Below are positions 1 through 27,922 of a DNA stretch of 28,054 nucleotides, piece after piece. Each line of letters begins with the position of its first letter. Positions within the stretch are counted from its first letter, which is position 1. Below the pieces are notes generated by a model, which saw only the letters and a program-made list of their open reading frames with translations, made no database searches and was not told the DNA's origin. A program made the translations under genes and the position numbers. Source of the stretch: a virus; IMG/VR virus record IMGVR_UViG_3300025168_000493, positions 1 to 28,054 of that record; one strand, 5' to 3'.

Positions 1-3000
1 AATGCGCCGGCGGCATTTATTGCAAATCCACTAGCAGATATAGCACCAGTAGTATCTAATTCTAATTTTGTTACAGTATTAGTTCTTAATTTAACTTTAC
101 CGTCTTTAATTTGAACATTAGATTTATTTGCAGCTACGCGTCCTACAATTGTATCTTGTCCAAATAATGCTACTTGGCTTGACGCTGATACTACTTGCAA
201 ACCTTGATTGAACATAAGTGAATAATTATCTGCATCAAATAATGATTTAACGCCAACTGTATTTAATTGTAATTTTACGTTCTGTGCTGATGTCCCGTCA
301 TAAAATTCAGTAGTAGTACCAAACTTAGCTAATCCAAAATCAGGGGATTGACCCGATGATGATATATGTATTGAATCATTAGAAAGAACTACTTGTTTTA
401 CTATATCATCAATTGCAGTCTGTGCTGATGATGCACTAAAAATAGCTAAGGCTGCACTTGAAGATGCTGCGCCTACCATTACAGTTGCAGCATTAGATGC
501 TGATTGAGCAGTTGCTGCACTGGCAGATGCCGCGGCCGCATCTACTATACCTATGGCTGCACTAGCAGATGCCGCGGCTGCATCTACTATACCTATGGCT
601 GCACTTGCAGATGCTGCACCAGCTTGGACGGCAGCTGAATTAGATGCTGATTGAGCAGTATCAATTCCTAATTGGCCTATGGTACCATCTTTGAAAACTG
701 ATAATCTTCTTAATGATCCGCCATCTCCAATTGGTGAAAACATTTTAATAACATTTGAGCCGGATAGTATTGGAATACGATATTCCCATATGGCATCTGT
801 TTGTTCGCCGGTATTACTTCCACCAGACGTATCTCCAAAATTTGTTATGTTAGCAGATAATGCCCAATTGGATCCTGTATGAAAGTTAAAACCATTGCTA
901 CCACTCTGATTAACAAATACAGGTGCGCTTCTACCATGAGGATTCAATTCAGTAAAATCATCATGCATTATTAATTGAGGTGCTACATAACCAGAACTAG
1001 AATTAACTATTAATCGCGCACCGTTTTCCGCATCATTTGCAATTACTCGAATACTTCCAGATCCTGCCTCAGTGGAAGTAAATGTGAACGTATCACTGTT
1101 AGGTATAGCACTGTAATCAGTTTGACCACTTTGCCAACTATTGAAGATAGGCCCGGTGTCAAATATCTGAACTAATGGTCCATTTGTCCAATATGATGGA
1201 GTAGTAAACATGCCCCTATCATCTGGAACTGTACCTCCGTTTAAATCTCCGGAGATTCTTAACTGCGCTAGCGATGCGGTAGCCCATTGTTTAAATGGAA
1301 TTAATGCATTGACAGATGCACTTGCTGCTGCACCTGCTCCAAAATCAACTTCTGTGGTTGATGCTGCACCAATAGTTATTGTACCGTTAATTGCTAAATT
1401 GGTACCATTCCAAGATAATTTATCTTTTAAACTAAATCGGCCAATTGAATCCATATATATTGGAGTATTTGATGCAGAAAATGTTCCAGTACCAACAAAC
1501 ATTTTATTTGTGCCTAACGTTACAGCTCCTACTTGACCCGCACTTGCAGTTATTCTACCATCCGCAGAAACTTTAAAAGCTGATGATGAAATAAATGATA
1601 CGGGATCAGGTTTATCTTGAGATGATGATATTCTCCAATGAGTACTAGATGTTATATTACCTAACTTGCTTATATGCATATTTCCGCCGTCAAAAGACTC
1701 ATCGCTAAGTCTCCAACCTGCAATTGTTCCGCCAGTAGCAGTTACGTTACCTGATGTATCAACTTCAAATTTAGGACTATTACTACCACCTAATCGAATT
1801 GTCCCGGCATCTAAATCTAATTCTGAACCTACCGATGCTCCAAAATTTGTTGATCGTATTTTACCTGTTGTTACACTACCTCCATCTATTACTGTGGTTT
1901 TTTGTCCTGGTGCTGTTACTTGTATATTACAAATATCTATCACATGTGTATTTTTCAAACAAGTTATACTCACATCTAAATCATCTGGTGTATGAGGTTG
2001 TCCCGCAAATTCAACATCTCCTATAGAACCTGTCAGGTTAGGATATTTGAATACTTGATATCGAGCACTTTTAGATGAATTACCAAATGGTGTTATAATA
2101 CATCTATATTTTTCTCCAACTTCTAAACTATCTGCTGCTACTGTTCCCATACTAGTACCGCCATGATATACAGTTATATCATCGTTTGAAAAATATAAAG
2201 CATGAGCTGTATTTCGAAATGTAGCCGTTGGATGTACAACCGTTGATGCAGACGGCACTGCTCCCCATCCGATCATCATTCTTGGTGCAGACTGATCTCC
2301 TGTTATATCTCTAGGTACAACATCAAAAACTAAACTATGATCACCAGAACGGTGGAAACGTTGCTTACTTCGCAGTTCACCGTTCCAACTGGAATTATTA
2401 GAAGAAGATACCATCAAAATACCATTCTTTACTTGGTGTCTAGTTGTTATAGTTTGGAACCACTGTGATCCAGAAATTTCTCCGTCTGGGACTAATTTAG
2501 TAGAAGGTACACTTGAACCAGAAACTCCTCCAAAGCTCTCTAACATTGAATCGCCTACAGGATCTGTTATTTCTAATTTACCTTTAAAATATCCATTTCC
2601 GGTATATAATCCAAATCCTGTAACTCCATCGCTAAAACTTGAATCTGTAATACCTGATAAATCTCCTAGCTGAGCTTTAAGACTTAAATCGTATACACCA
2701 GAACCAGTACGTTCTACTATTTGCATATATGGAGTAGCTTGGTCATTAGGATTTGCATTTAATCTAATGTACCCAGTTCCTAATTTACCAGTTGATACAA
2801 TTACTTGAGAACCAGTATATGTTTGAGCTACTGATACTAAGTCTCCAAATGAACTAGATTTACGATTGTTTACATATCCTCTGATAACATATATTTTTCC
2901 GGCAAGATCGGTATCACTAGATTTATCATTTCTACTTGCAGAATTTATAAACAAATACTCTGTCGCAAATCCTGTACTACTTACTTTTTTTGCTGTAATT

Positions 3001-6000
3001 ATTTCTCCGACAGAGAATCCAGAAACGTTTTTAACCGACATTGTAGTAGCAGTTGCAGAATAAAATCCACCAGGATTTGCTGCTGAGCCTGTTAATGTAG
3101 TTGAATTAGCAACATATAATTGACCTCCAACTGCATTAACTGTTTCTTTTTCAAATACTGCAGTTGATAAAGTTCCTCTAATTCTAGCATTTTCAACTTC
3201 TAACATTCCACCAGAAGCAGCAGTTAATCGAAATCCTGAACCAGCTAAGTTTGATACAAATCCATCAGATTCAATAGTACCATCTTTTCGAATGATCATA
3301 CTACCGCCAGTTAATTTTTCGTTATCAAATTCCCAACCAGCAATATGATTATTAGGTTCGCCGGTAATTGTATTTGCTCCTAAAGCAAAAGTAACATTAC
3401 CACCTACTTTACCTAAAATACCATAATCATCAGATGCTAGGTATCTAACATTAACTTCATTATTAACATCTTCAAATACTTTTAATCCATAACTTGAACT
3501 TAAATGTACACCAGTAGACGATAAAGCTACTGGTTTAATGTTCCATCCGCCAATTTTTCCGCCATCAAATAATACTTGAGATCCAGTCGTTTTACCACCT
3601 GGTGAGACTTTGAATTGAGATGATGATATAAATCCACCTGGGTCATTAGTATTTACCGAAGATGATATTTTCCAATAAGTACTAGCTGATATAAATCCTT
3701 GTTTATTTATATGCATTGCGCCACCATCAAATGACTTATCACTAAGTTTCCAGCCAGCAAGCTCACCACCTGTAAATTGAACATTAGTTCCTGTTATCTG
3801 GCCGGTTGCCTTTAATCTTAAATTATTATTTGAAGATCGTATTTCTTCTGTGACTACGTTAAATCCTGCAATTGATGCGGAAGCAAATCTTGCAAATCCA
3901 TCTGAATCTATAGATGATGAAGCGTTATTTGTGGTTGAGCCTGCCCCGTTAATAGTAGCCGGTGTTCTTAAACTATTTACAGTTAATCCAGCATTTATTG
4001 TTGCATCAGCTCCAATAATTAATGAATTATTTTGAGGATCTAAATGAAATAATGACGATGATATTTCTATATTTCCACCAGATCCAGAAATAAATTGTGT
4101 TCCTTCCGATCCAATAAAGAATTTTTTTGCTCTAATATCAATACCATCAGATGTATCAAATTTAAAAAAGCTAGACGAATCTTGTACTAATTCAAGACCT
4201 ACACCATTATAATTATCTGGAGATCCTGGTAATACTGATCCGGTATATATCATAAATCCACCGGGTTGATCTGTTCTAGATGCTGACTTAAATCCATTAT
4301 ATCCTATAGATCTAATATATCCTGAATTTACACCTGCTAATTCAATACCAGCACCGGTTGTATTTCCTATAAACAATGAACCGGTTAATAAATTATTAGT
4401 ACCATCAATTAATAAATTATCTCCATAAAATGTTACCGGGTAAACTGTTGTTTCAGCTTGAGCTTTATTATTATGTATATCATAATAAAGAAATTTAAAT
4501 GTTAATGGTGTTTCTAAAAATTCTGATGGAATTCGTGTATTTATTCTGGTAAAGTTTGGTGAAAATCCAGTTTGTTTGTCAGACTTTAAACTAATATTTG
4601 ATAATGTCCATTTACCTCTACGTATTACAAAATATACATCAATATTTTCTTCTTTTAAAGTTCTAAAAGATAAAAATGCGGGATCGGCATCAAATGTATT
4701 TCCTTGAGCTATTTCTATAGTAGCTATACGTGTGCCAAATAAAGTTATATCATCAATTTCAGCGTTAGTATTAGTTAGATACCGATTGAGATATTGAGAA
4801 TCAACTTCTATAGATGAATTACTTCCAGATATATAAATGTCTACACGTGGATGTAAAATATTACTATCAGTCGATGTATGTGTTGAATCATCTGCCACAG
4901 CATTAAACGTTAACATATACCTTGTATTTGCATATACTTTTGGGTGATATACAGATTTTAAATTTATATATCCATATTGATTAAGAGATGCATCAAATGT
5001 ACTGTCAGGTGTCAGTTCAATTCCATCAATTAATATATCTGATTTAAAGGATGGTGTGAGTTGTACTTTGTTGACGCTATCCGCAGGAGTTTCCCAATAT
5101 GCATTAAAGTCATCTAAACTTGTAAAATATCCTATGCGATTATATATCATTCCAATTGATTGTATAGATTCAAATGATGCTACATCTTCTAAAATTTCAA
5201 CTTGTTCAACTTCTACATATCCTGCATCAATAAAATCTCCAAACTGTCCTGCAGGTTTATATAATGTCTGTATTTTATGAACATCACCAGTTGCTGGTTC
5301 AATATTTCCTAAAACAATTTCTGCAAAGGATTGTGATTGTTCTGTACTAGATAATATAAAGGGTTCTACATAGCTGCATGTAAAATTTGATGATGCCTTT
5401 ATATTTTTTATATCATATTCTCCATCTTTACCTATTGTAGTAAAGGAAAATGCTCCAAATGTATTTTCATCTTCATTTTTAAATCCGGTTGATAAAAATA
5501 CATTTGCTTTTGTACTTGATAATATTTTATCAATAACAAATGTATAACTTCCAGAAAGTTGTATAGATGGATCTCCTAGGTCATTACTAGTAACTGCGGC
5601 CTGATCTGTTGTAGTTTGTGACGATGGTATAAGATGTCCATTGCTATCAATTAAACTATTACCTTGAAGTAAATCAACTTGAGGATTAACAATTGTTATA
5701 GATCCACCTTCCATTGACGATGATAATGCAAATCCTGTTGTCTCCAATCTACTAAACGTTGATATTGTAACAATTTCTGCACTTTCAACTTCTAATGGTT
5801 GGTTAGTGGCACTAGTATTTTTAACTACTGGCTTTATTATAGCTTGTTTACCAGCTGACCTCATCGGTGTTCTAGCAGTGGCGCCGCCTTCATAATTTAT
5901 ACGTTGAGATATATTAGAACTAAGTGATTTAATAGATTTTCGTTTTGGAGCAGTGCTAGGAATAGCTTTTATTATAACTACACCAGAACCACTTCTTGCC

Positions 6001-6587
6001 ACTTCTACATCAGATAAATTTATTGGAGTAAAAAACCTATTTACTCGTTCTTGGACAGTTGCTTTAGGATATGGTTGCGTAAAAATAATCTCTGTATTAT
6101 TTTTTGAATTTTCTGGTGCTATTGGTATATCACGCGACCATAATACATTTGGAAGATTAAAATAATTTGGATCGTTATAATCTCGGCTAAATGGAACTTG
6201 TTGATTAGTATTTATATCTATTTTTGTTCGGCTAGCTATATAAACTGTTCCTATACCTGGTGCAGTTTTATCTGGATATATATAAATTGAAATTACTCTA
6301 GTACCGTCATGTTCTAGATAGTTTAATGGTTCATAATATATTGGAGATCCGTTAGAGTCTAATATCTCAATATGAATTTTTGAATTTTTAACTAAAACAT
6401 TGTTATTATTAGCCCGAAGTTTTATTAAATTTTTTCCGGCTGTGAAACGAGTAGGAAATTCTACAATATCAAAAATTCCATCAGATATTAATGATGTATC
6501 ACGAAATTGTATTGTAGGATAATTTTCTAAATCAATTTTTGTAACACGTTTTTCAAGTTCTCCTTGATTCCATGTACCTGCAGCCAT
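1..6587 (-). CDS. Giant tail-fibre-like structural protein, C-terminus beyond the window
   Basis: One minus-strand frame stays open from an ATG at 6587 to the left edge, at least 2195 codons with no stop; in-frame translation was checked near 5039, 2099, 599 and the edge. The start has AAAGG six nucleotides upstream and begins MAAGTWNQGELEKRV. The protein is rich in Gly, Ser, Thr and Asn. Recognisable stretches are an IGSEGTQFISGSGGNIEISSS-type segment split around residues 830-860, four GG-x-I-x-GW blocks (about 940-1000, 1000-1026, 1076-1109, 1620-1680), a block with ATPYMQIVERTGSGVYDL near 1265-1310, and an Ala/Ser-rich heptad-like region near 1975-2060. These resemble segments seen in tail-fibre and central-fibre proteins of marine myoviruses and prophages. 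The likely role is a trimeric fibre for host recognition. The receptor-binding tip and any C-terminal chaperone would be outside the window. Function is inferred from composition, size and position. Confidence 0.85.
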   Translation of the reverse strand, partial: MAAGTWNQGELEKRVTKIDLENYPTIQFRDTSLISDGIFDIVEFPTRFTAGKNLIKLRANNNNVLVKNSKIHIEILDSNGSPIYYEPLNYLEHDGTRVISIYIYPDKTAPGIGTVYIASRTKIDINTNQQVPFSRDYNDPNYFNLPNVLWSRDIPIAPENSKNNTEIIFTQPYPKATVQERVNRFFTPINLSDVEVARSGSGVVIIKAIPSTAPKRKSIKSLSSNISQRINYEGGATARTPMRSAGKQAIIKPVVKNTSATNQPLEVESAEIVTISTFSRLETTGFALSSSMEGGSITIVNPQVDLLQGNSLIDSNGHLIPSSQTTTDQAAVTSNDLGDPSIQLSGSYTFVIDKILSSTKANVFLSTGFKNEDENTFGAFSFTTIGKDGEYDIKNIKASSNFTCSYVEPFILSSTEQSQSFAEIVLGNIEPATGDVHKIQTLYKPAGQFGDFIDAGYVEVEQVEILEDVASFESIQSIGMIYNRIGYFTSLDDFNAYWETPADSVNKVQLTPSFKSDILIDGIELTPDSTFDASLNQYGYINLKSVYHPKVYANTRYMLTFNAVADDSTHTSTDSNILHPRVDIYISGSNSSIEVDSQYLNRYLTNTNAEIDDITLFGTRIATIEIAQGNTFDADPAFLSFRTLKEENIDVYFVIRRGKWTLSNISLKSDKQTGFSPNFTRINTRIPSEFLETPLTFKFLYYDIHNNKAQAETTVYPVTFYGDNLLIDGTNNLLTGSLFIGNTTGAGIELAGVNSGYIRSIGYNGFKSASRTDQPGGFMIYTGSVLPGSPDNYNGVGLELVQDSSSFFKFDTSDGIDIRAKKFFIGSEGTQFISGSGGNIEISSSLFHLDPQNNSLIIGADATINAGLTVNSLRTPATINGAGSTTNNASSSIDSDGFARFASASIAGFNVVTEEIRSSNNNLRLKATGQITGTNVQFTGGELAGWKLSDKSFDGGAMHINKQGFISASTYWKISSSVNTNDPGGFISSSQFKVSPGGKTTGSQVLFDGGKIGGWNIKPVALSSTGVHLSSSYGLKVFEDVNNEVNVRYLASDDYGILGKVGGNVTFALGANTITGEPNNHIAGWEFDNEKLTGGSMIIRKDGTIESDGFVSNLAGSGFRLTAASGGMLEVENARIRGTLSTAVFEKETVNAVGGQLYVANSTTLTGSAANPGGFYSATATTMSVKNVSGFSVGEIITAKKVSSTGFATEYLFINSASRNDKSSDTDLAGKIYVIRGYVNNRKSSSFGDLVSVAQTYTGSQVIVSTGKLGTGYIRLNANPNDQATPYMQIVERTGSGVYDLSLKAQLGDLSGITDSSFSDGVTGFGLYTGNGYFKGKLEITDPVGDSMLESFGGVSGSSVPSTKLVPDGEISGSQWFQTITTRHQVKNGILMVSSSNNSSWNGELRSKQRFHRSGDHSLVFDVVPRDITGDQSAPRMMIGWGAVPSASTVVHPTATFRNTAHALYFSNDDITVYHGGTSMGTVAADSLEVGEKYRCIITPFGNSSKSARYQVFKYPNLTGSIGDVEFAGQPHTPDDLDVSITCLKNTHVIDICNIQVTAPGQKTTVIDGGSVTTGKIRSTNFGASVGSELDLDAGTIRLGGSNSPKFEVDTSGNVTATGGTIAGWRLSDESFDGGNMHISKLGNITSSTHWRISSSQDKPDPVSFISSSAFKVSADGRITASAGQVGAVTLGTNKMFVGTGTFSASNTPIYMDSIGRFSLKDKLSWNGTNLAINGTITIGAASTTEVDFGAGAAASASVNALIPFKQWATASLAQLRISGDLNGGTVPDDRGMFTTPSYWTNGPLVQIFDTGPIFNSWQSGQTDYSAIPNSDTFTFTSTEAGSGSIRVIANDAENGARLIVNSSSGYVAPQLIMHDDFTELNPHGRSAPVFVNQSGSNGFNFHTGSNWALSANITNFGDTSGGSNTGEQTDAIWEYRIPILSGSNVIKMFSPIGDGGSLRRLSVFKDGTIGQLGIDTAQSASNSAAVQAGAASASAAIGIVDAAAASASAAIGIVDAAAASASAATAQSASNAATVMVGAASSSAALAIFSASSAQTAIDDIVKQVVLSNDSIHISSSGQSPDFGLAKFGTTTEFYDGTSAQNVKLQLNTVGVKSLFDADNYSLMFNQGLQVVSASSQVALFGQDTIVGRVAANKSNVQIKDGKVKLRTNTVTKLELDTTGAISASGFAINAAGA
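516..617 (-). repeat. 42-bp tandem repeat inside the fibre gene
   Basis: Two consecutive 42-bp units (516-557 and 558-599) are near identical, and the first 18 bases of a third unit follow at 600-617. Each unit encodes a 14-residue peptide, roughly AIGIVDAAAASASA, so copy-number change keeps the frame. Fourteen residues is two heptads, fitting an alpha-helical coiled-coil stalk. More divergent Ala/Ser-rich copies flank the exact units. Confidence 0.85.
1554..1733 (-). repeat. 60-codon fibre repeat, C-terminal copy
   Basis: This block starts GGTIAGWRLSDESFDGG and ends FKVSADGR. It aligns without gaps to 3591-3770: 38 of 60 residues are identical by eye. The DNA has diverged, so this is an old internal duplication. 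Confidence 0.85.
3591..3770 (-). repeat. 60-codon fibre repeat, N-terminal copy
   Basis: This block starts GGELAGWKLSDKSFDGG and ends FKVSPGGK, exactly 60 codons and colinear with the block at 1554-1733. Two shorter relatives follow in the protein: GGKIGGWNI (around 3511-3590) and HIAGWEFDNEKLTGG (around 3262-3360). Confidence 0.85.
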
Positions 6588-6604: not shown

Positions 6605-6613
6605 TATAAATAT
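6605..6613 (-). promoter_or_regulatory. Leader motif ATATTTATA before the fibre gene
   Basis: The sense strand reads ATATTTATA, 17 nt before the fibre start and overlapping the gp47-46 stop codon. It is one of five copies in this window. The opposite strand reads TATAAATAT. Its role is unknown: promoter element, AU-rich translation enhancer or processing site are all possible. Confidence 0.5.
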
Positions 6614-9600
6614 TAGTCATATGCAATTTCAGAATATCCGTTTACTTTTTTGATTTCTACTAATTTATCTACAATGTCACGCATTGCATCAATATGTGAT
6701 ATACATAAGATGAATCCAAATTGTGATTTTAAATAATCAAATAACATATACATGCTATTTAAATTATCAGAATCTAATACTCCAAATCCTTCATCGATGG
6801 CTAAGAAATTAGGTCTAGGTAGATTTGATACATTAATTAATGATGTTCGTATTGCTAATGAAGATATAAATTTCTCCATTCCAGATGTTAATTCTAATGG
6901 CCAGTAATTATCATCATCATAAACAATGTAAGCATTTATATTCTTACCATCTGTATCCATTACCATGGTAAAATCAACTATTTGGTTAAGTATATTATTT
7001 ATTTCTGATTCAATCTGTGGTAAAGCTTTTGATATTAAATGATAAGGAACACCATCTCGATTAACTGCTTTTTGATAATATTCATAAGCTTGATATTGTT
7101 GTTCTAATGTCTTTAATCTGTTAATACCTGTTTCCGCGTCTTCTCGAGACTTTTCAGCCATTTTTAGTTTTCCAGATAAATTTAATAATTTAGAATCTAA
7201 ATTACTTACCTCAGAATTAACAGTTGATATTTCATCACGTATTTCTTCAATTTCAGAATTTTTCTTTTTATTGAATTCAATATTATCTTTTTGATTTTTT
7301 GCTTTAGTTAATTGTTTTTTATAATCAGAAATTTTAACAAATAACGTTTCAATGTCCCATTCACATTTACCAAATTCATGTTCCATGGTAGCTAACAATT
7401 GTTTCCATTTGTTAACATCAGATTTAAATGCATTTAATAAATCTATTTTTTCACGTGGTTGATCTTTTCGTAAATTATCTATTTTATTTCCAATGTCATC
7501 TATATCAAATAATATTTGTTGTTCTTCATCAATTAATTTTGGTAATAAATCTGCAACTTGTTTAGTTTCATGTAGCCATGGATTTGCCATACAAAATTTA
7601 CATTCTGGGTCCCATTCATGTTTGTCTAATTTAGATACCATTTTTTGAGCATGTTGAATTTTAAGTTGTTTAAACTTTAGATCGTTATTTAATTTATCAA
7701 CATTAGATATATATGTTTTTAAATTATCTATTTGAGAATATAATTCATCTTCATTAACTGAATCTATTTGTTTCTGTGTATTATTTATTAAATCTTTTTT
7801 AGATACTATCATACCAGCTTTTTGATCTCTATCTTGTATATGTTCTTGTAACTGTATTTTTGCTTGTTTAATTTTATCTGAAATAGCATCTGGATCTAAT
7901 GTAGTATCAACGTTTTTTAATTCTTTTGTCATGACAAAAATGATATCATTTAAATTTGTTTTCATTTCTTCATGTTCAGTTTTATCTACTTTCATTTGTT
8001 CATATGAACCGGTAAATTGAGATATAGTATCTTTTGCAGATGATAAATCTGTTGAAAAATCTTTTCTTTTGTATTCACGGATTAATGCTGCAGTTTCTCT
8101 AATATCTTCATGTCCAATTAAATATTGTTTTTCAAATATATCTAAATCTAAAAATTGAGATAAAAGATCTTTACGTTCTCTTTGTGTTTTATCAATAAAT
8201 CCAGTATTATTATTTTGTAATGATAATGCAGTTAAAACAAAATCTTCATATGAACCTAAATATTGTCTTATACTTTTATTTGTTGAATCTCGTTGTTCGC
8301 CATTTAAACTTTCATGATTACCAGACTCATCAATACGCCAAAAATCTACATTTAATTTAACATGACCATTACTCTGTTTTTTTGCTTTACGTTCAATAAA
8401 ATATGTATACTTACCTAAATCAAATTCAAATTTACATTCAAAATTTGATTTTTTATTATTTAACACATGTACTGCTTTTTTTGTACGAGAGCATTTATCA
8501 AAACAACAAAATGCTAATGCATCTAATAATGTTGATTTACCAGAAGCATTTGGAGCAAATAATCCATATGTTCCATTCATATTTGAAAAATCTATAGAAT
8601 TATTAGGACCATAACTAAACATGTTAGAAAATTCAAATGTCTTTGGAATCCATGTTATATTTCTAGTTAATGTGCTAGTTGGTAATTTACTATGCACTTG
8701 TCTATTAATATATCTAATAGTATCTAATAATGCATCATCTAATGCATATTCATCTGTAAGATAATCTGTAATAACTTTATTTTGCCATTCAACATCGCGA
8801 ATATTACCAAAATTAATTTTATTTTTTGAATCAGTAGTATTTAATGCATTAACTTTTTGTAATGCAATATCTTGTACTTTATATTGAGATTTAACATCTG
8901 CAATGATACGTTTCAATGTTGCTGAATCGGTATCTTTTACTTTAAATCTTAATCTAGGACGTAATGGAATTTTATTGCTAGGATTTGTTATTTTTCCGGC
9001 ATCAACTTGAAATGTATAATAACCATAATCATTTTTTATTTCAACAAAATTACATTTTTTAGATTCTAAATCCCATATCATTATTCCATGGCCTAAAGCT
9101 TCCCCATGATTTTGTTGGATCAATGAGCCGGCGTAAGCCACTGTTTTATTATCATCTAAAAATTGTGGTTTATGAATATCTCCTAACAAAACTAAATCAT
9201 GTCCTTTAAACATTTCAGTTGTTACATGTGTATTACTTAACACAAATCCTGCATCTGTTGATGCATTATGCACTGAACCATGGTGTAATGCAATTTTATA
9301 ATCACCTTCAAAACTATCGGCTTTTATATAATCAACGGGTTTATCGAACACCGACATTACGTTAAAGTGTACTCCGGCCATACTATATACACCGTTGTCT
9401 TTAAGATAGTGTAAGTTTTGATGATTCAAGGCTTTAACTATAGGAGATAAGGCATCTAAGCGATAGTTGTTATTTAGGTTACAATCATGGTTTCCAGTAA
9501 TTACAATTGTAGGAGCTATATCTGCCAATTGTTTAAAGAAATCAGATACTACAGATACTAATTCTGGAGACATATCTGTTTTTGCATGTACAATATCTCC

Positions 9601-9765
9601 AGCTACATATATTAAAGAATCATCTGTTTTTGTTTTTTCAATATACGAATATAAACGTTTAAATACTAATTTATATTCTTTATGCCGCTTTACGTTTCTG
9701 ACATGTACATCTGCAATATGGTAAATTTTACCAATTTTCTCCATTCCAATATCTATATGCTGCAT
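6613..9765 (-). CDS. 47-46: Fused gp47-gp46 (Mre11/SbcD-Rad50/SbcC) recombination endonuclease
   Basis: This single 1050-residue ORF joins a nuclease and its ATPase, which are separate proteins in T4 (gp47 and gp46). Residues 1-365 are a calcineurin-like nuclease: ADVH (D19, H21), GDIVH (D57), GNHD (N92, H93), HHG (H161-H162) and GDIH (D196, H198). From about 370 a Rad50-type ATPase begins: Walker A APNASGKST (404-412), Q-loop Q517, long coiled coil, zinc hook CKFC (C722, C725), second coil, signature TSGMEKF (960-966), Walker B NFLAIDE (986-992), D-loop LD and H1024. The complex resects DNA ends for recombination-dependent replication and may degrade host DNA. The first Walker glycine is Ala, which the [AG]xxxxGK[ST] pattern allows. 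The start overlaps the primase end by 13 nt. An internal Met8 start is possible. Confidence 0.95.
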   Translation of the reverse strand: MQHIDIGMEKIGKIYHIADVHVRNVKRHKEYKLVFKRLYSYIEKTKTDDSLIYVAGDIVHAKTDMSPELVSVVSDFFKQLADIAPTIVITGNHDCNLNNNYRLDALSPIVKALNHQNLHYLKDNGVYSMAGVHFNVMSVFDKPVDYIKADSFEGDYKIALHHGSVHNASTDAGFVLSNTHVTTEMFKGHDLVLLGDIHKPQFLDDNKTVAYAGSLIQQNHGEALGHGIMIWDLESKKCNFVEIKNDYGYYTFQVDAGKITNPSNKIPLRPRLRFKVKDTDSATLKRIIADVKSQYKVQDIALQKVNALNTTDSKNKINFGNIRDVEWQNKVITDYLTDEYALDDALLDTIRYINRQVHSKLPTSTLTRNITWIPKTFEFSNMFSYGPNNSIDFSNMNGTYGLFAPNASGKSTLLDALAFCCFDKCSRTKKAVHVLNNKKSNFECKFEFDLGKYTYFIERKAKKQSNGHVKLNVDFWRIDESGNHESLNGEQRDSTNKSIRQYLGSYEDFVLTALSLQNNNTGFIDKTQRERKDLLSQFLDLDIFEKQYLIGHEDIRETAALIREYKRKDFSTDLSSAKDTISQFTGSYEQMKVDKTEHEEMKTNLNDIIFVMTKELKNVDTTLDPDAISDKIKQAKIQLQEHIQDRDQKAGMIVSKKDLINNTQKQIDSVNEDELYSQIDNLKTYISNVDKLNNDLKFKQLKIQHAQKMVSKLDKHEWDPECKFCMANPWLHETKQVADLLPKLIDEEQQILFDIDDIGNKIDNLRKDQPREKIDLLNAFKSDVNKWKQLLATMEHEFGKCEWDIETLFVKISDYKKQLTKAKNQKDNIEFNKKKNSEIEEIRDEISTVNSEVSNLDSKLLNLSGKLKMAEKSREDAETGINRLKTLEQQYQAYEYYQKAVNRDGVPYHLISKALPQIESEINNILNQIVDFTMVMDTDGKNINAYIVYDDDNYWPLELTSGMEKFISSLAIRTSLINVSNLPRPNFLAIDEGFGVLDSDNLNSMYMLFDYLKSQFGFILCISHIDAMRDIVDKLVEIKKVNGYSEIAYD

Positions 9766-10676
9766 AATATCTTTTGTTCCATTAATTTTTCTTGAGTCAA
9801 CATTGCTGTATGTTCAATTTCATATTTAATTTGTTTAAATCCTAATTCACTTGGATCTGAATTTGGTAGGTCTACAAAGTAAACATCTAATCCGTTTGCC
9901 ATAAAGTAGTTAGCTGTATCTAATGCCTGTTTACGTGCATCCATATCTAAACAAATATATATTTCTTGTACACCTTTTTCTACGATACGCATTTTTAATG
10001 TATTTGGTATAGTTTTACCAAATAATGGAATTGCATTTCTTTTAATTGCAATTGCATCAAATGCTCCTTCGACTAATATAATAGGCATTTTCCAGTTTAT
10101 ATGCAATTCAAATCCTATAATATCTTTTGATGTATTTGGATTTTTATGTTTATAATCAGTATCATAATATGCCCGGCCAACAAAATAATTTAAACTACCA
10201 TTAGCATCATAACTAGGAATAATTATTTTACCGTTATATAATCCACTAGTGCAATAACCAATACGATATTTAAGTATATCATGTATAGTAATACCTCTAT
10301 TTTTTAAATAATGCACAGCATTACGATATTCAGGTGCTTTAGTATTAATTTTCCATAATGGTGTATATTCTTCAGGTAATTGTATGACCGGTGTATCGGT
10401 TGTAGTTTTAGTAGGCCGATATTCTACATCATCAAGTAATTGTATTAACCGTGATATTTTTTCACGTTGAACATTGAGTTTACGAAATAATACAGTTAAT
10501 TTACGCCCAGCAGCGTTACATACCCAACAATGCCAATGTTGAGAAACTATATTAACTTCCATTTTCTTTTTACTAGTATGGCAGAATGGGCAATGATATG
10601 CAATGTTATCATTTGAATTGATTTTACCTTTACCAAGTATAGAATCTAAAAGTGTAGTGATAGCAAATTTGCTCAT
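9753..10676 (-). CDS. 61: DnaG-type DNA primase (T4 gp61-like)
   Basis: The 307-residue protein has the two-part layout of phage primases. An N-terminal zinc ribbon shows C29-x2-C32 and C50-x2-C53, with nearby H48 as an alternative ligand. A Toprim domain carries the acidic residues: LVEGAFDA (E203, D207), LDMDA (D244, D246) and SDPSE (D274). The family makes short RNA primers for lagging-strand synthesis at the replication fork together with a replicative helicase, which is not in this window. There is no helicase domain in this protein, matching T4 gp61 rather than the fused T7 gp4. The gene follows a strong sigma70-type promoter and leads directly into the gp47-46 fusion. No convincing Shine-Dalgarno site precedes the ATG at 10676. 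The 13-nt overlap with the next gene suggests co-translation. Confidence 0.92.
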   Translation of the reverse strand: MSKFAITTLLDSILGKGKINSNDNIAYHCPFCHTSKKKMEVNIVSQHWHCWVCNAAGRKLTVLFRKLNVQREKISRLIQLLDDVEYRPTKTTTDTPVIQLPEEYTPLWKINTKAPEYRNAVHYLKNRGITIHDILKYRIGYCTSGLYNGKIIIPSYDANGSLNYFVGRAYYDTDYKHKNPNTSKDIIGFELHINWKMPIILVEGAFDAIAIKRNAIPLFGKTIPNTLKMRIVEKGVQEIYICLDMDARKQALDTANYFMANGLDVYFVDLPNSDPSELGFKQIKYEIEHTAMLTQEKLMEQKILCSI

Positions 10677-10790: not shown

Positions 10791-11198
10791 TCAACCTTTT
10801 AACCAACTTTCTGGTATACTTTTTTCTGCCCATGGTATTTCATGTTTATCACAAAAATCACCGTATGTTGTTTTTGAACCTTTACGTATTTTTGTACGAG
10901 CTGATTGAAATACAATACGTATATCTAATTCCGGATGTTGTTTTTTAATTAACAAATGTTTTTTACGATCTTCTAAAACCCATCGACCTTTTGTTTCTAC
11001 TAAAATTCCATTTGGTAAAGTAAAATCAATTGTATATGTATGTTTTGTTTCTGGTTTAATATATTTTATAACCGTATCTTCATAACCATATTTAACTTTT
11101 GCTTCTGTTAATTGATCTGATACACGATGTTCGAATCCACTTCGATAACCATGTTTAATTGCGTTTGCACGTATCTTTGATTTACGTTTCCATGCCAT
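10791..11198 (-). CDS. T7 endonuclease I-like Holliday-junction resolvase
   Basis: This 135-residue protein matches phage T7 gp3, which cleaves branched DNA. The PD-(D/E)xK active site is intact: E23 (GFEHRV), D58 (TIDFTL), E68 and K70 (LVETKG). The spacing equals that of T7 endonuclease I (E20, D55, E65, K67), shifted by three. The N-terminus is basic (MAWKRKSKIRANA) and the C-terminus ends in SWLKG; conserved Trp and basic residues continue after the active site. The likely job is resolving recombination and replication junctions before packaging, the task of endonuclease VII (gp49) in T4. AATAGGAA supplies the ribosome site. The gene sits directly after a virion gene and before the early promoter of the primase, so it is probably expressed late with the tail genes. 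A different PD-(D/E)xK nuclease is unlikely given the spacing. Confidence 0.9.
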   Translation of the reverse strand: MAWKRKSKIRANAIKHGYRSGFEHRVSDQLTEAKVKYGYEDTVIKYIKPETKHTYTIDFTLPNGILVETKGRWVLEDRKKHLLIKKQHPELDIRIVFQSARTKIRKGSKTTYGDFCDKHEIPWAEKSIPESWLKG

Positions 11199-26565: not shown

Positions 26566-27311
26566 TATTTATCTCCAAATAAATCATCAAACATTTTAGT
26601 TGCATTAATCTGCGTTTGAGGACTAGTTATTTTTCTTTTAGGTGCTTGCGTAGTAATAGGTTTATTATTATTCCAACGCTCATATTCAATTCTTGCTGCC
26701 ATAGCATCTGCTTGATGCATTACATAACCTAAGTTTGTTTTAAGTTTAGCATCTGCAGATCTAGATATAAAGTAAGGTTTATTTGATTCATCATATAACC
26801 CATCTGTTAATTTAATACCTAACATTTCATTCCATGATATTTCTATACCATAATGTTGTAATAACCAAATAGATAAATCATTAACTAATGTAAATGGATT
26901 ATTAGGATTAATTTTATATTCTTTACCTTGATTCTTTCTATGCCATTCTGAATCATTTATTTGATATATTTCATTACCATCACCTGGAAATCCCATTTTA
27001 CCAATATCATGATTTAATGCAGTAAACATTAATTCTTCTCTTGTATATCCTGACATATCTCCTTCCATACGAGTCCATAATGCATGCACTTCTTGAGCAC
27101 ATTTAATTACTCTTAAAACATGCTCTACATATCCTCCAGGAAACGCATTATGATAATGATTGAAAGATGACGCCGGAGACATTGCCATGCGATCTTCTAA
27201 ATCAGTATACATTGCTAATAATTTAGCTTTACGGTCTCCGGTAAATTCTGTTTTGATGATGTTTAGTAACTCATCCCAATTTTGTGCTATTTGGTCAGCT
27301 GTTAATTTCAT
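26565..27311 (-). CDS. HD-domain phosphohydrolase, YhaM-like
   Basis: The 248-residue protein has the metal-binding HD pattern: H64 in GGYVEHVLRV, H101-D102 in LNHDIGKMG, and D202 in MHQADAMAAR. The spacing, the preceding NHYHNAFPGG and the HDIGK pattern resemble the HD domain of YhaM-type 3'-5' exoribonucleases, but the OB-fold that YhaM carries in front is absent. The family also includes nucleotide phosphohydrolases, so the substrate is open: RNA or nucleotide. The C-terminal 30 residues are disordered and end in ATKMFDDLFGDK, an acidic-aromatic tail resembling sliding-clamp-binding peptides. The gene overlaps clpP by 4 nt (ATGA) and the membrane-protein gene by 1 nt. Nucleotide salvage or RNA turnover during late infection are reasonable roles; this is inference. 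Confidence 0.8.
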   Translation of the reverse strand: MKLTADQIAQNWDELLNIIKTEFTGDRKAKLLAMYTDLEDRMAMSPASSFNHYHNAFPGGYVEHVLRVIKCAQEVHALWTRMEGDMSGYTREELMFTALNHDIGKMGFPGDGNEIYQINDSEWHRKNQGKEYKINPNNPFTLVNDLSIWLLQHYGIEISWNEMLGIKLTDGLYDESNKPYFISRSADAKLKTNLGYVMHQADAMAARIEYERWNNNKPITTQAPKRKITSPQTQINATKMFDDLFGDK

Positions 27312-27922
27312 ATTATTGTATCAATTACGTTATATTCTTTTAATTGTTCGGCAGTTAAATATAAATCTGTTTTCATATTATCTTTCCACCATGCCTGATC
27401 TTTATTTGTTTTTTCTGCTAAAATATCATATATAGATTTTTCTAAATTCTTTACATTATCTAAGTATGCGGTTATATCACTCATCTTACCTCCTAAGAAA
27501 CTAGATGATTGATGAAACATTACAGTAGATCGTTTACTCATCATTCTTGAACCAGTACCACATGCTAATATAATTGCTGCGGCTGAGAAAGCTCTACCTC
27601 TACATATGGTATTTACTTTAACCTCTAGAGATTCTATATAATCAATAATACCTAACATTTCATGCACATCACCTCCTGGTGAATTGATCATTAAATTGAC
27701 AGGAGCTGTTTTATTTTCACGATTCTGTAATAAACTTCTCATACGTATAATTAAATCTGTCAATGTATGGTCATTTATTTCATCGTTAAGAAATATTATT
27801 GAATCATTATAATCAACTAATGTTGCTAATTGATTATGCAAAGCCTCATATAATGAACCATTACTCTTTTCTTCTTCTACTTCTTTCATCACTTCTTTTG
27901 ATTTTTCATCGTAAATGCTCAT
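27308..27922 (-). CDS. clpP: ClpP-family serine protease
   Basis: This 204-residue protein matches ClpP in length and fold signatures: SPGG at 81-84 (oxyanion region), the nucleophile S113 in RGRAFSAAA, H137 in VMFHQSS, and D186 in KTDLYLTAEQ, aligning with S97, H122 and D171 of mature E. coli ClpP. The C-terminal LKEYNVIDTI is the usual ClpP ending. ClpP-type proteins in phages can serve as prohead maturation proteases or as true ATP-dependent ClpP subunits. No capsid gene or Clp ATPase is present in the window, so the role is open. The N-terminal 30 residues are charged and replace the axial-loop region. AGGAAAAG lies before the ATG, with a T4-late-type TATAAATA just upstream. It leads the HD, membrane and sigma cluster. 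Confidence 0.9.
   Translation of the reverse strand: MSIYDEKSKEVMKEVEEEKSNGSLYEALHNQLATLVDYNDSIIFLNDEINDHTLTDLIIRMRSLLQNRENKTAPVNLMINSPGGDVHEMLGIIDYIESLEVKVNTICRGRAFSAAAIILACGTGSRMMSKRSTVMFHQSSSFLGGKMSDITAYLDNVKNLEKSIYDILAEKTNKDQAWWKDNMKTDLYLTAEQLKEYNVIDTII

Follow-up and report, generated by a model that had tools for sequence, protein, structure and literature searches.

The window, by which we mean the whole 28,054-base stretch of virus DNA analysed here (a virus record that is probably a fragment), carries on its minus strand a single gene at 6613-9765 in which the nuclease Mre11 (SbcD) is joined to the ATPase Rad50 (SbcC). We consider it very probable that the product is an R555-like fused Mre11/Rad50 end processor encoded in the replication cassette (endonuclease I, primase, fusion) of a marine contractile-tailed phage. 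The earlier note on this DNA had treated such a fusion as implicitly new; however, such fusions were already reported by Yoshida, Claverie and Ogata (Virol J 2011), who listed Mimivirus R555 together with twelve further fused Mre11/Rad50 proteins from bacteria, plasmids, eukaryotes and one Bacillus phage (0305phi8-36), noted homologues on marine virus-like scaffolds as well, and argued for several fusion events (PMC3175470). According to the same report, the predicted fusion linker has 9-12 residues and is able to span about 28 Å, in R555 the third Asp of GDxxD is replaced by His, and His206 by Asp, R555 homologues are very abundant in marine viral metagenomes, and on GOS marine scaffolds they lie beside phage primases and T7 gp3-like endonucleases (PMC3175470). 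Because the window's protein shares the linker length, both substitutions and the primase and T7 gp3-like neighbours, it adds to this family, on record since 2011, a full-length member together with its genomic context. What makes the present analysis of interest is chiefly that the linker is fixed, that the fusion is widespread and that it has re-partitioned relatives.

Domain architecture of the fused protein

The reading frame is uninterrupted for 1050 codons from an ATG at 9765 to a stop at 6613, and the ORF listing and translation confirmed the exact coordinates given earlier while placing the gene on the minus strand. A Pfam search of the fused protein matched Metallophos (PF00149) over residues 13-200 (8.6e-10) and AAA_23 over residues 380-608 (2.3e-4; 22.3 bits, which is below the Pfam gathering score of 27), and a PHROG search matched SbcC phrog_77 over residues 290-1049 (5e-43). 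The frame and both searches confirmed the proposal that nuclease and ATPase lie in one chain, and the enforced 1:1 stoichiometry proposed with it therefore follows. The features of the gene and its upstream neighbours, in window coordinates and all on the minus strand, are as follows.

6613..9765, minus strand: fused Mre11/SbcD-Rad50/SbcC gene, 1050 aa (ORF, Pfam, PHROG, relatives, model)
9001..9729, minus strand: calcineurin-type nuclease domain, residues 13-255 (PF00149, invariance, VIA-align)
8854..9000, minus strand: capping domain, strand-helix-strand, residues 256-304 (predicted structure, VIA-align)
8689..8793, minus strand: helix-loop-helix, putative Rad50-docking element of Mre11, residues 325-359 (position and predicted fold)
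8656..8688, minus strand: linker, residues 360-370 (predicted structure and aligned relatives)
8131..8655, minus strand: Rad50 ATPase head, N-terminal lobe, residues 371-545, including Q-loop Q517 (motifs, model, VIA-align)
8530-8556, minus strand: Walker A, residues 404-412 (aligned relatives)
7066..8130, minus strand: antiparallel coiled coil, residues 546-900 (predicted structure)
7591-7602, minus strand: CxxC zinc hook, residues 722-725 (invariance)
6616..7065, minus strand: Rad50 ATPase head, C-terminal lobe, residues 901-1050, including the signature TSGMEKF (960-966), Walker B (986-992) and H1024 (motifs, VIA-align)
9753..10676, minus strand: DNA primase-like gene (Zn-ribbon and Toprim), directly upstream (Pfam, PHROG)
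10791..11198, minus strand: T7 gp3-like endonuclease I (PF05367, 9e-54)

An AlphaFold2 single-chain model was built from 78 family members (mean pLDDT 83.7, pTM 0.45). Comparison with VIA-align matched residues 11-304 to S. aureus SbcD (7dog; Z 24.8, 272 residues, rmsd 3.3), residues 9-304 to E. coli SbcD (4m0v; Z 23.4) and residues 372-1050 to E. coli SbcC (7yzo; Z 31.5, 350 residues, rmsd 2.9). In the model the capping domain ends at residue 304 and is followed by a poorly ordered loop (residues 305-324) and by two helices (325-340 and 344-359) located at the place of the Mre11 helix-loop-helix, whose role as a Rad50-docking element is taken from Mre11-Rad50 structures cited in PMC3175470. 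The linker had been put around residues 345-375; most of that interval is not linker, as residues 344-359 form the predicted second helix of the helix-loop-helix and the first Rad50 strand begins at 371. A Foldseek comparison returned giant-virus proteins of 969-1389 aa at BFVD ranks 1-5 (E 1.8e-75 to 1.7e-57), the best matches coming from Tupanvirus, Harvfovirus, Yasminevirus, Terrestrivirus and Catovirus; these five are full-length fused proteins with 20-26% identity over about 1100-1370 columns.

Among the aligned relatives, all of the catalytic and ATPase residues named in the earlier note proved invariant or almost invariant, although its H161 (39 of 41 sequences) should be replaced by H162 (invariant in 41 of 41). 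Across these 41 sequences the metal ligands of the nuclease are D19, H21, D57, N92, H93, H162, D196 and H198; the earlier list of Mre11 ligands omitted N92 and included D196, which is not the canonical residue. This position is His206 in P. furiosus Mre11, and Mimivirus R555 has the same Asp substitution (PMC3175470). Both R555-type substitutions are present, namely H60, a His for the third Asp of GDxxD (40/41), and D196 (41/41), and either type is also found singly in some unfused phage proteins. The Rad50/SbcC features are all present (Walker A, Q-loop, signature, Walker B, D-loop, H-loop and a coiled coil with the CxxC hook), with hook cysteines C722 and C725 invariant in 78 sequences.

The junction among relatives

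The fusion is common and widespread in aquatic phages. Scans of IMG/VR, first with the protein itself and later with an alignment, gave 124 distinct contigs (129 locus identifiers, five being repeated contigs), and the junction is crossed by one ORF in 121 of them, the other three being cut by contig ends. Single-ORF fusions also occur in Microcystis phage Mel-JY01 and in the huge phage LR756501. The linker is 11 residues long in 77 of 78 aligned relatives, and its length stays constant over 42-97% identity. When codons 360-371 of 12 close relatives were compared with those of the window, changes at codon positions 1, 2 and 3 numbered 2, 0 and 47, corresponding to 46 synonymous changes versus 1 nonsynonymous. 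Because only about 8% of the 12-codon stretches in the gene (85 of 1039 windows, many of them at catalytic and ATPase motifs) are equally constrained, the linker is under about as strong a constraint among close relatives as the motif regions. Judged by alignment of the whole family, linker length is kept more than linker sequence.

These observations bear on two ways in which the single chain could be misleading. Overlapping or adjacent gene pairs are common in phages (in Vibrio phage D146, for example, SbcD and SbcC overlap by 4 bases), and a stop or frameshift missed in the linker of such an ordinary two-gene operon would produce a fusion by assembly or annotation artefact. The single frame in 121 of 124 independent contigs, the preserved codon periodicity and the constant linker length all speak against this; they bear out the open frame across the linker that the earlier note had reported, make an assembly slip very unlikely and leave the artefact explanation with a practically negligible probability. 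It is likewise very improbable that one chain is translated as a polyprotein and then cut in the linker into ordinary separate subunits. Nothing direct favours such processing, though a head-maturation-protease-like gene is present in the window at 27308-27922, and the linker sequence varies across the family (LPTSTLTRNITW, LPAVESIRHTTW, LQSADIPKNITY), unlike a conserved cleavage site. As for a free Rad50 made from an internal start, no Shine-Dalgarno-linked in-frame ATG, GTG or TTG was found in codons 251-410 of 13 sequences (the window and its close relatives), and starts lacking a Shine-Dalgarno sequence would still be possible.

Several other candidates were set aside. The plasmid collection contained no fused relative, only partial ATPase matches. 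At locus L160, continuation of the nuclease into the Rad50 half through a recoded stop (TAG as Gln) was rejected, as the frame is not open. The 1009-aa BFVD entry of Listeria phage LMTA-57 was not counted as an independent fusion, since its relatives, Listeria phages LMTA-148 and LP-125, have separate genes; the SbcC-type gene is one ORF in LP-125 and is annotated as two in LMTA-148 (locus L170, 3648-4475 and 4622-5530). A fused gene 75% identical to that of the window lies on an 11-kb contig (CALBOT010000005.1) in a Candidatus Nitrosopelagicus MAG bin; it is most likely a phage contig in that bin and is possibly a hint of the host.

Genomic context and proposed role

The window contains contractile-tail (T4-like) baseplate genes and a head-maturation-protease-like gene, and the carrier is therefore a tailed phage. 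Among the 111 loci that have 1.5 kb or more of upstream sequence, 110 contain a homologue of the primase, and in 109 its distance from the fused gene is at most 300 nt; a T7 gp3-like endonuclease I was detected in 86 of the 97 loci with at least 2.5 kb upstream (a few loci in these counts are repeated contigs). Elsewhere in the window, a Clp-protease-like gene at 27308-27922 (PF00574, 5e-36) also matches phage head-maturation-protease families, and a tail-fibre-like ORF containing repeated motifs occupies 3-6587 on the minus strand; it is 2195 aa or longer and runs off the window end.

Two larger genomes allowed the complement of related genes to be surveyed. In the complete 190-kb genome of Microcystis phage Mel-JY01, no Metallophos protein and no full-length phrog_77-type ATPase occurs apart from the fusion; two other phrog_77-type matches are weak and partial (at most 21 bits). 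In G001 (197 kb) it is the only SbcC-type match, with three other small phosphoesterases present. Both genomes encode RecA, and because the G001 RecA gene is split across the two ends of the record, a circular map is suggested for G001. Since the fusion is the sole full SbcC-type gene in these RecA-encoding genomes and has primase and endonuclease I neighbours, the fused protein most likely, by homology and context, carries out end processing that feeds RecA-dependent recombination, as gp46/gp47 do in T4. Alternatively, recombination could be served by a separate gp46/gp47 pair, leaving the fusion a different task, for example anti-defence or host-DNA degradation. Most cellular organisms with a fusion also keep a separate pair, which suggests a different role for the fusion there (PMC3175470), and T4 gp46/47 also degrade host DNA according to the T4 annotation. 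Against this, neither Mel-JY01 nor G001 has a full SbcC-type gene other than the fusion, which also accounts for Mel-JY01's only Metallophos match, and primase and endonuclease I adjoin it, so that a separate job is very unlikely.

Under the end-processing reading, the chain would dimerise via nuclease, heads and hook in the same manner as separate Mre11-Rad50, and the helix-loop-helix would dock at the base of its own chain's coiled coil. Docking in cis is proposed since the linker has just the length needed to bridge the gap of roughly 28 Å described in the T. maritima complex. ATP-gated opening and closing would expose the nuclease to DNA ends and hairpins, and the resulting resected ends would serve RecA-dependent recombination and replication, by analogy with the job of gp46/gp47 in T4. 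Fusion would ensure 1:1 synthesis and assembly, with the pair inherited as one gene; the function is assigned by homology, and a new biochemical activity need not be assumed. Having a universal DNA-end-processing machine in a single gene would simplify Mre11-Rad50 reconstitution and would allow a test for cis action between the nuclease and the ATPase of a single chain.

Split relatives, known systems and origin

Two huge phages carry the pair in two pieces, and because they work in this way full fusion is not indispensable. The first pair, at locus L168 (1582-3960 and 15743-16576), is on a 286-kb contig from the bin of a Bacteroidales MAG; the second (L172, 9983-12361, and L173) is on a 363-kb IMG/VR contig. 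At L168 a 277-aa ORF comprises the nuclease core only and a 792-aa Rad50 ORF lies about 12 kb away, in which some 120 residues before Rad50 align with the cap and helix-loop-helix of fused proteins (matches start at fused residues 266-331). The L172/L173 arrangement is as in L168, to which it is 49% identical in the nuclease and 52% in the ATPase. The free nuclease core in these phages is 277-282 aa and is encoded far from the ATPase. A model of the L172/L173 ATPase (mean pLDDT 78.6; the input alignment included fused homologues) showed a strand at 13-19, a helix at 26-40, a strand at 47-53, helices at 74-87 and 95-108, and the head from residue 119. By comparison, the separate Rad50/gp46 proteins in the alignment begin with the head itself. 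We know of no cellular complex with a subunit boundary after the nuclease core. No published split with cap and helix-loop-helix on the ATPase was found in the open-licence literature, and within that literature these split pairs go beyond PMC3175470.

The earlier note held that relatives encoding the same region as two proteins would speak against the fusion. Such relatives do occur, and the window's fusion nevertheless stands because in both split pairs the cut lies inside the Mre11 part and not at the domain junction, and in the huge phage LR756508 an inserted endonuclease ORF interrupts the gene. We suggest, tentatively and as somewhat less likely than not, that what matters in the fusion may be the covalent tie of the Mre11 docking element (cap plus helix-loop-helix) to the Rad50 head rather than that of the nuclease core to the ATPase, and that the two huge phages have split the fused protein behind its nuclease core. 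If true, huge phages would hold a naturally re-partitioned Mre11-Rad50 machine, and this form offers a route to asking which Mre11-Rad50 contact must be permanent. The simplest reading of the split pairs is fission of a fused gene. They may also represent an intermediate stage, as the trees disagree: the ATPase and combined trees place the split pairs inside the fused ones (87% and 97%), and a second nuclease-only tree places them outside (97% for the fused proteins without the split ones).

A different interruption was observed in the 484-kb huge phage LR756508 (3607-4676 of its locus), where the fused gene is broken at the catalytic GDIHK by about 1 kb. The insert holds a 305-aa ORF matching HNH endonuclease (phrog_1271) and TnsA-like N-terminal (PF08722) models, and a search for group I or II introns gave no Rfam match at the gathering threshold. 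The interruption may be an intron with a homing endonuclease or a simple gene break.

Among known systems, Mimivirus R555 and its GOS homologues resemble the window's protein in order (nuclease, cap, helix-loop-helix, short linker, Rad50), in the H-for-D and D-for-H206 substitutions and in their occurrence in aquatic viruses, a likeness drawn from related giant-virus proteins and the description in PMC3175470. The window's protein is 1050 aa and belongs to a tailed phage with T4-like baseplate genes, whereas R555 has 1351 aa and belongs to a giant virus. The Tenacibaculum phage proteins pT24 gp019 (1310 aa; L166, 5995-9927) and PTm1 gp075 (1318 aa; L167, 5992-9948), members of PHROG 35725, also join nuclease and Rad50 in a single chain with an SGME-type signature, but these longer proteins are only distantly related to the window's (22-28% in the nuclease). 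E. coli SbcD/SbcC and cellular Mre11/Rad50 have all of the domains and catalytic motifs (structural Z 23-31) but are two proteins, and the sequence similarity of the window's protein to them is at subfamily level only, far below NCBIfam cut-offs. T4 gp47/gp46 are the same two enzymes, with the nuclease gene first and a replication/recombination context, but they are two proteins, have the canonical His in GHxH and lie far away in the trees.

Trees were calculated from the nuclease, the ATPase and both combined (24-25 sequences). The fused proteins, and with them both split huge-phage pairs, stand apart from the T4-like, SPO1-like, T5-like, Moorella-phage and E. coli pairs with 100% support in the ATPase and combined trees; support in the second nuclease tree is only 44%. 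T4 and S-SCSM2R cluster with Grass, outside the fused group (100%, ATPase and combined trees). The proposal that loss of a stop between T4-type genes 47 and 46 gave rise to the fusion does not hold, as two small genes, 46.1 and 46.2, intervene in T4 and the fused group is separate in the trees; an origin by operon fusion is likely, though not from a T4-type pair. Deep nodes inside the fused group are weak in places (43% in the combined tree), and the number of fusion events is therefore not readable from the trees.

Database names obscure the family. The Mel-JY01 fusion is recorded as 'AAA domain containing protein' and the Tenacibaculum fusions as 'metallo-phosphoesterase', and because fusions are catalogued under such names, surveys of SbcC and SbcD in phages will miscount them. 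In the parts of a jumbo-phage review at hand, SbcC and SbcD are described as practically universal and fused forms go unmentioned (PMC7824862).
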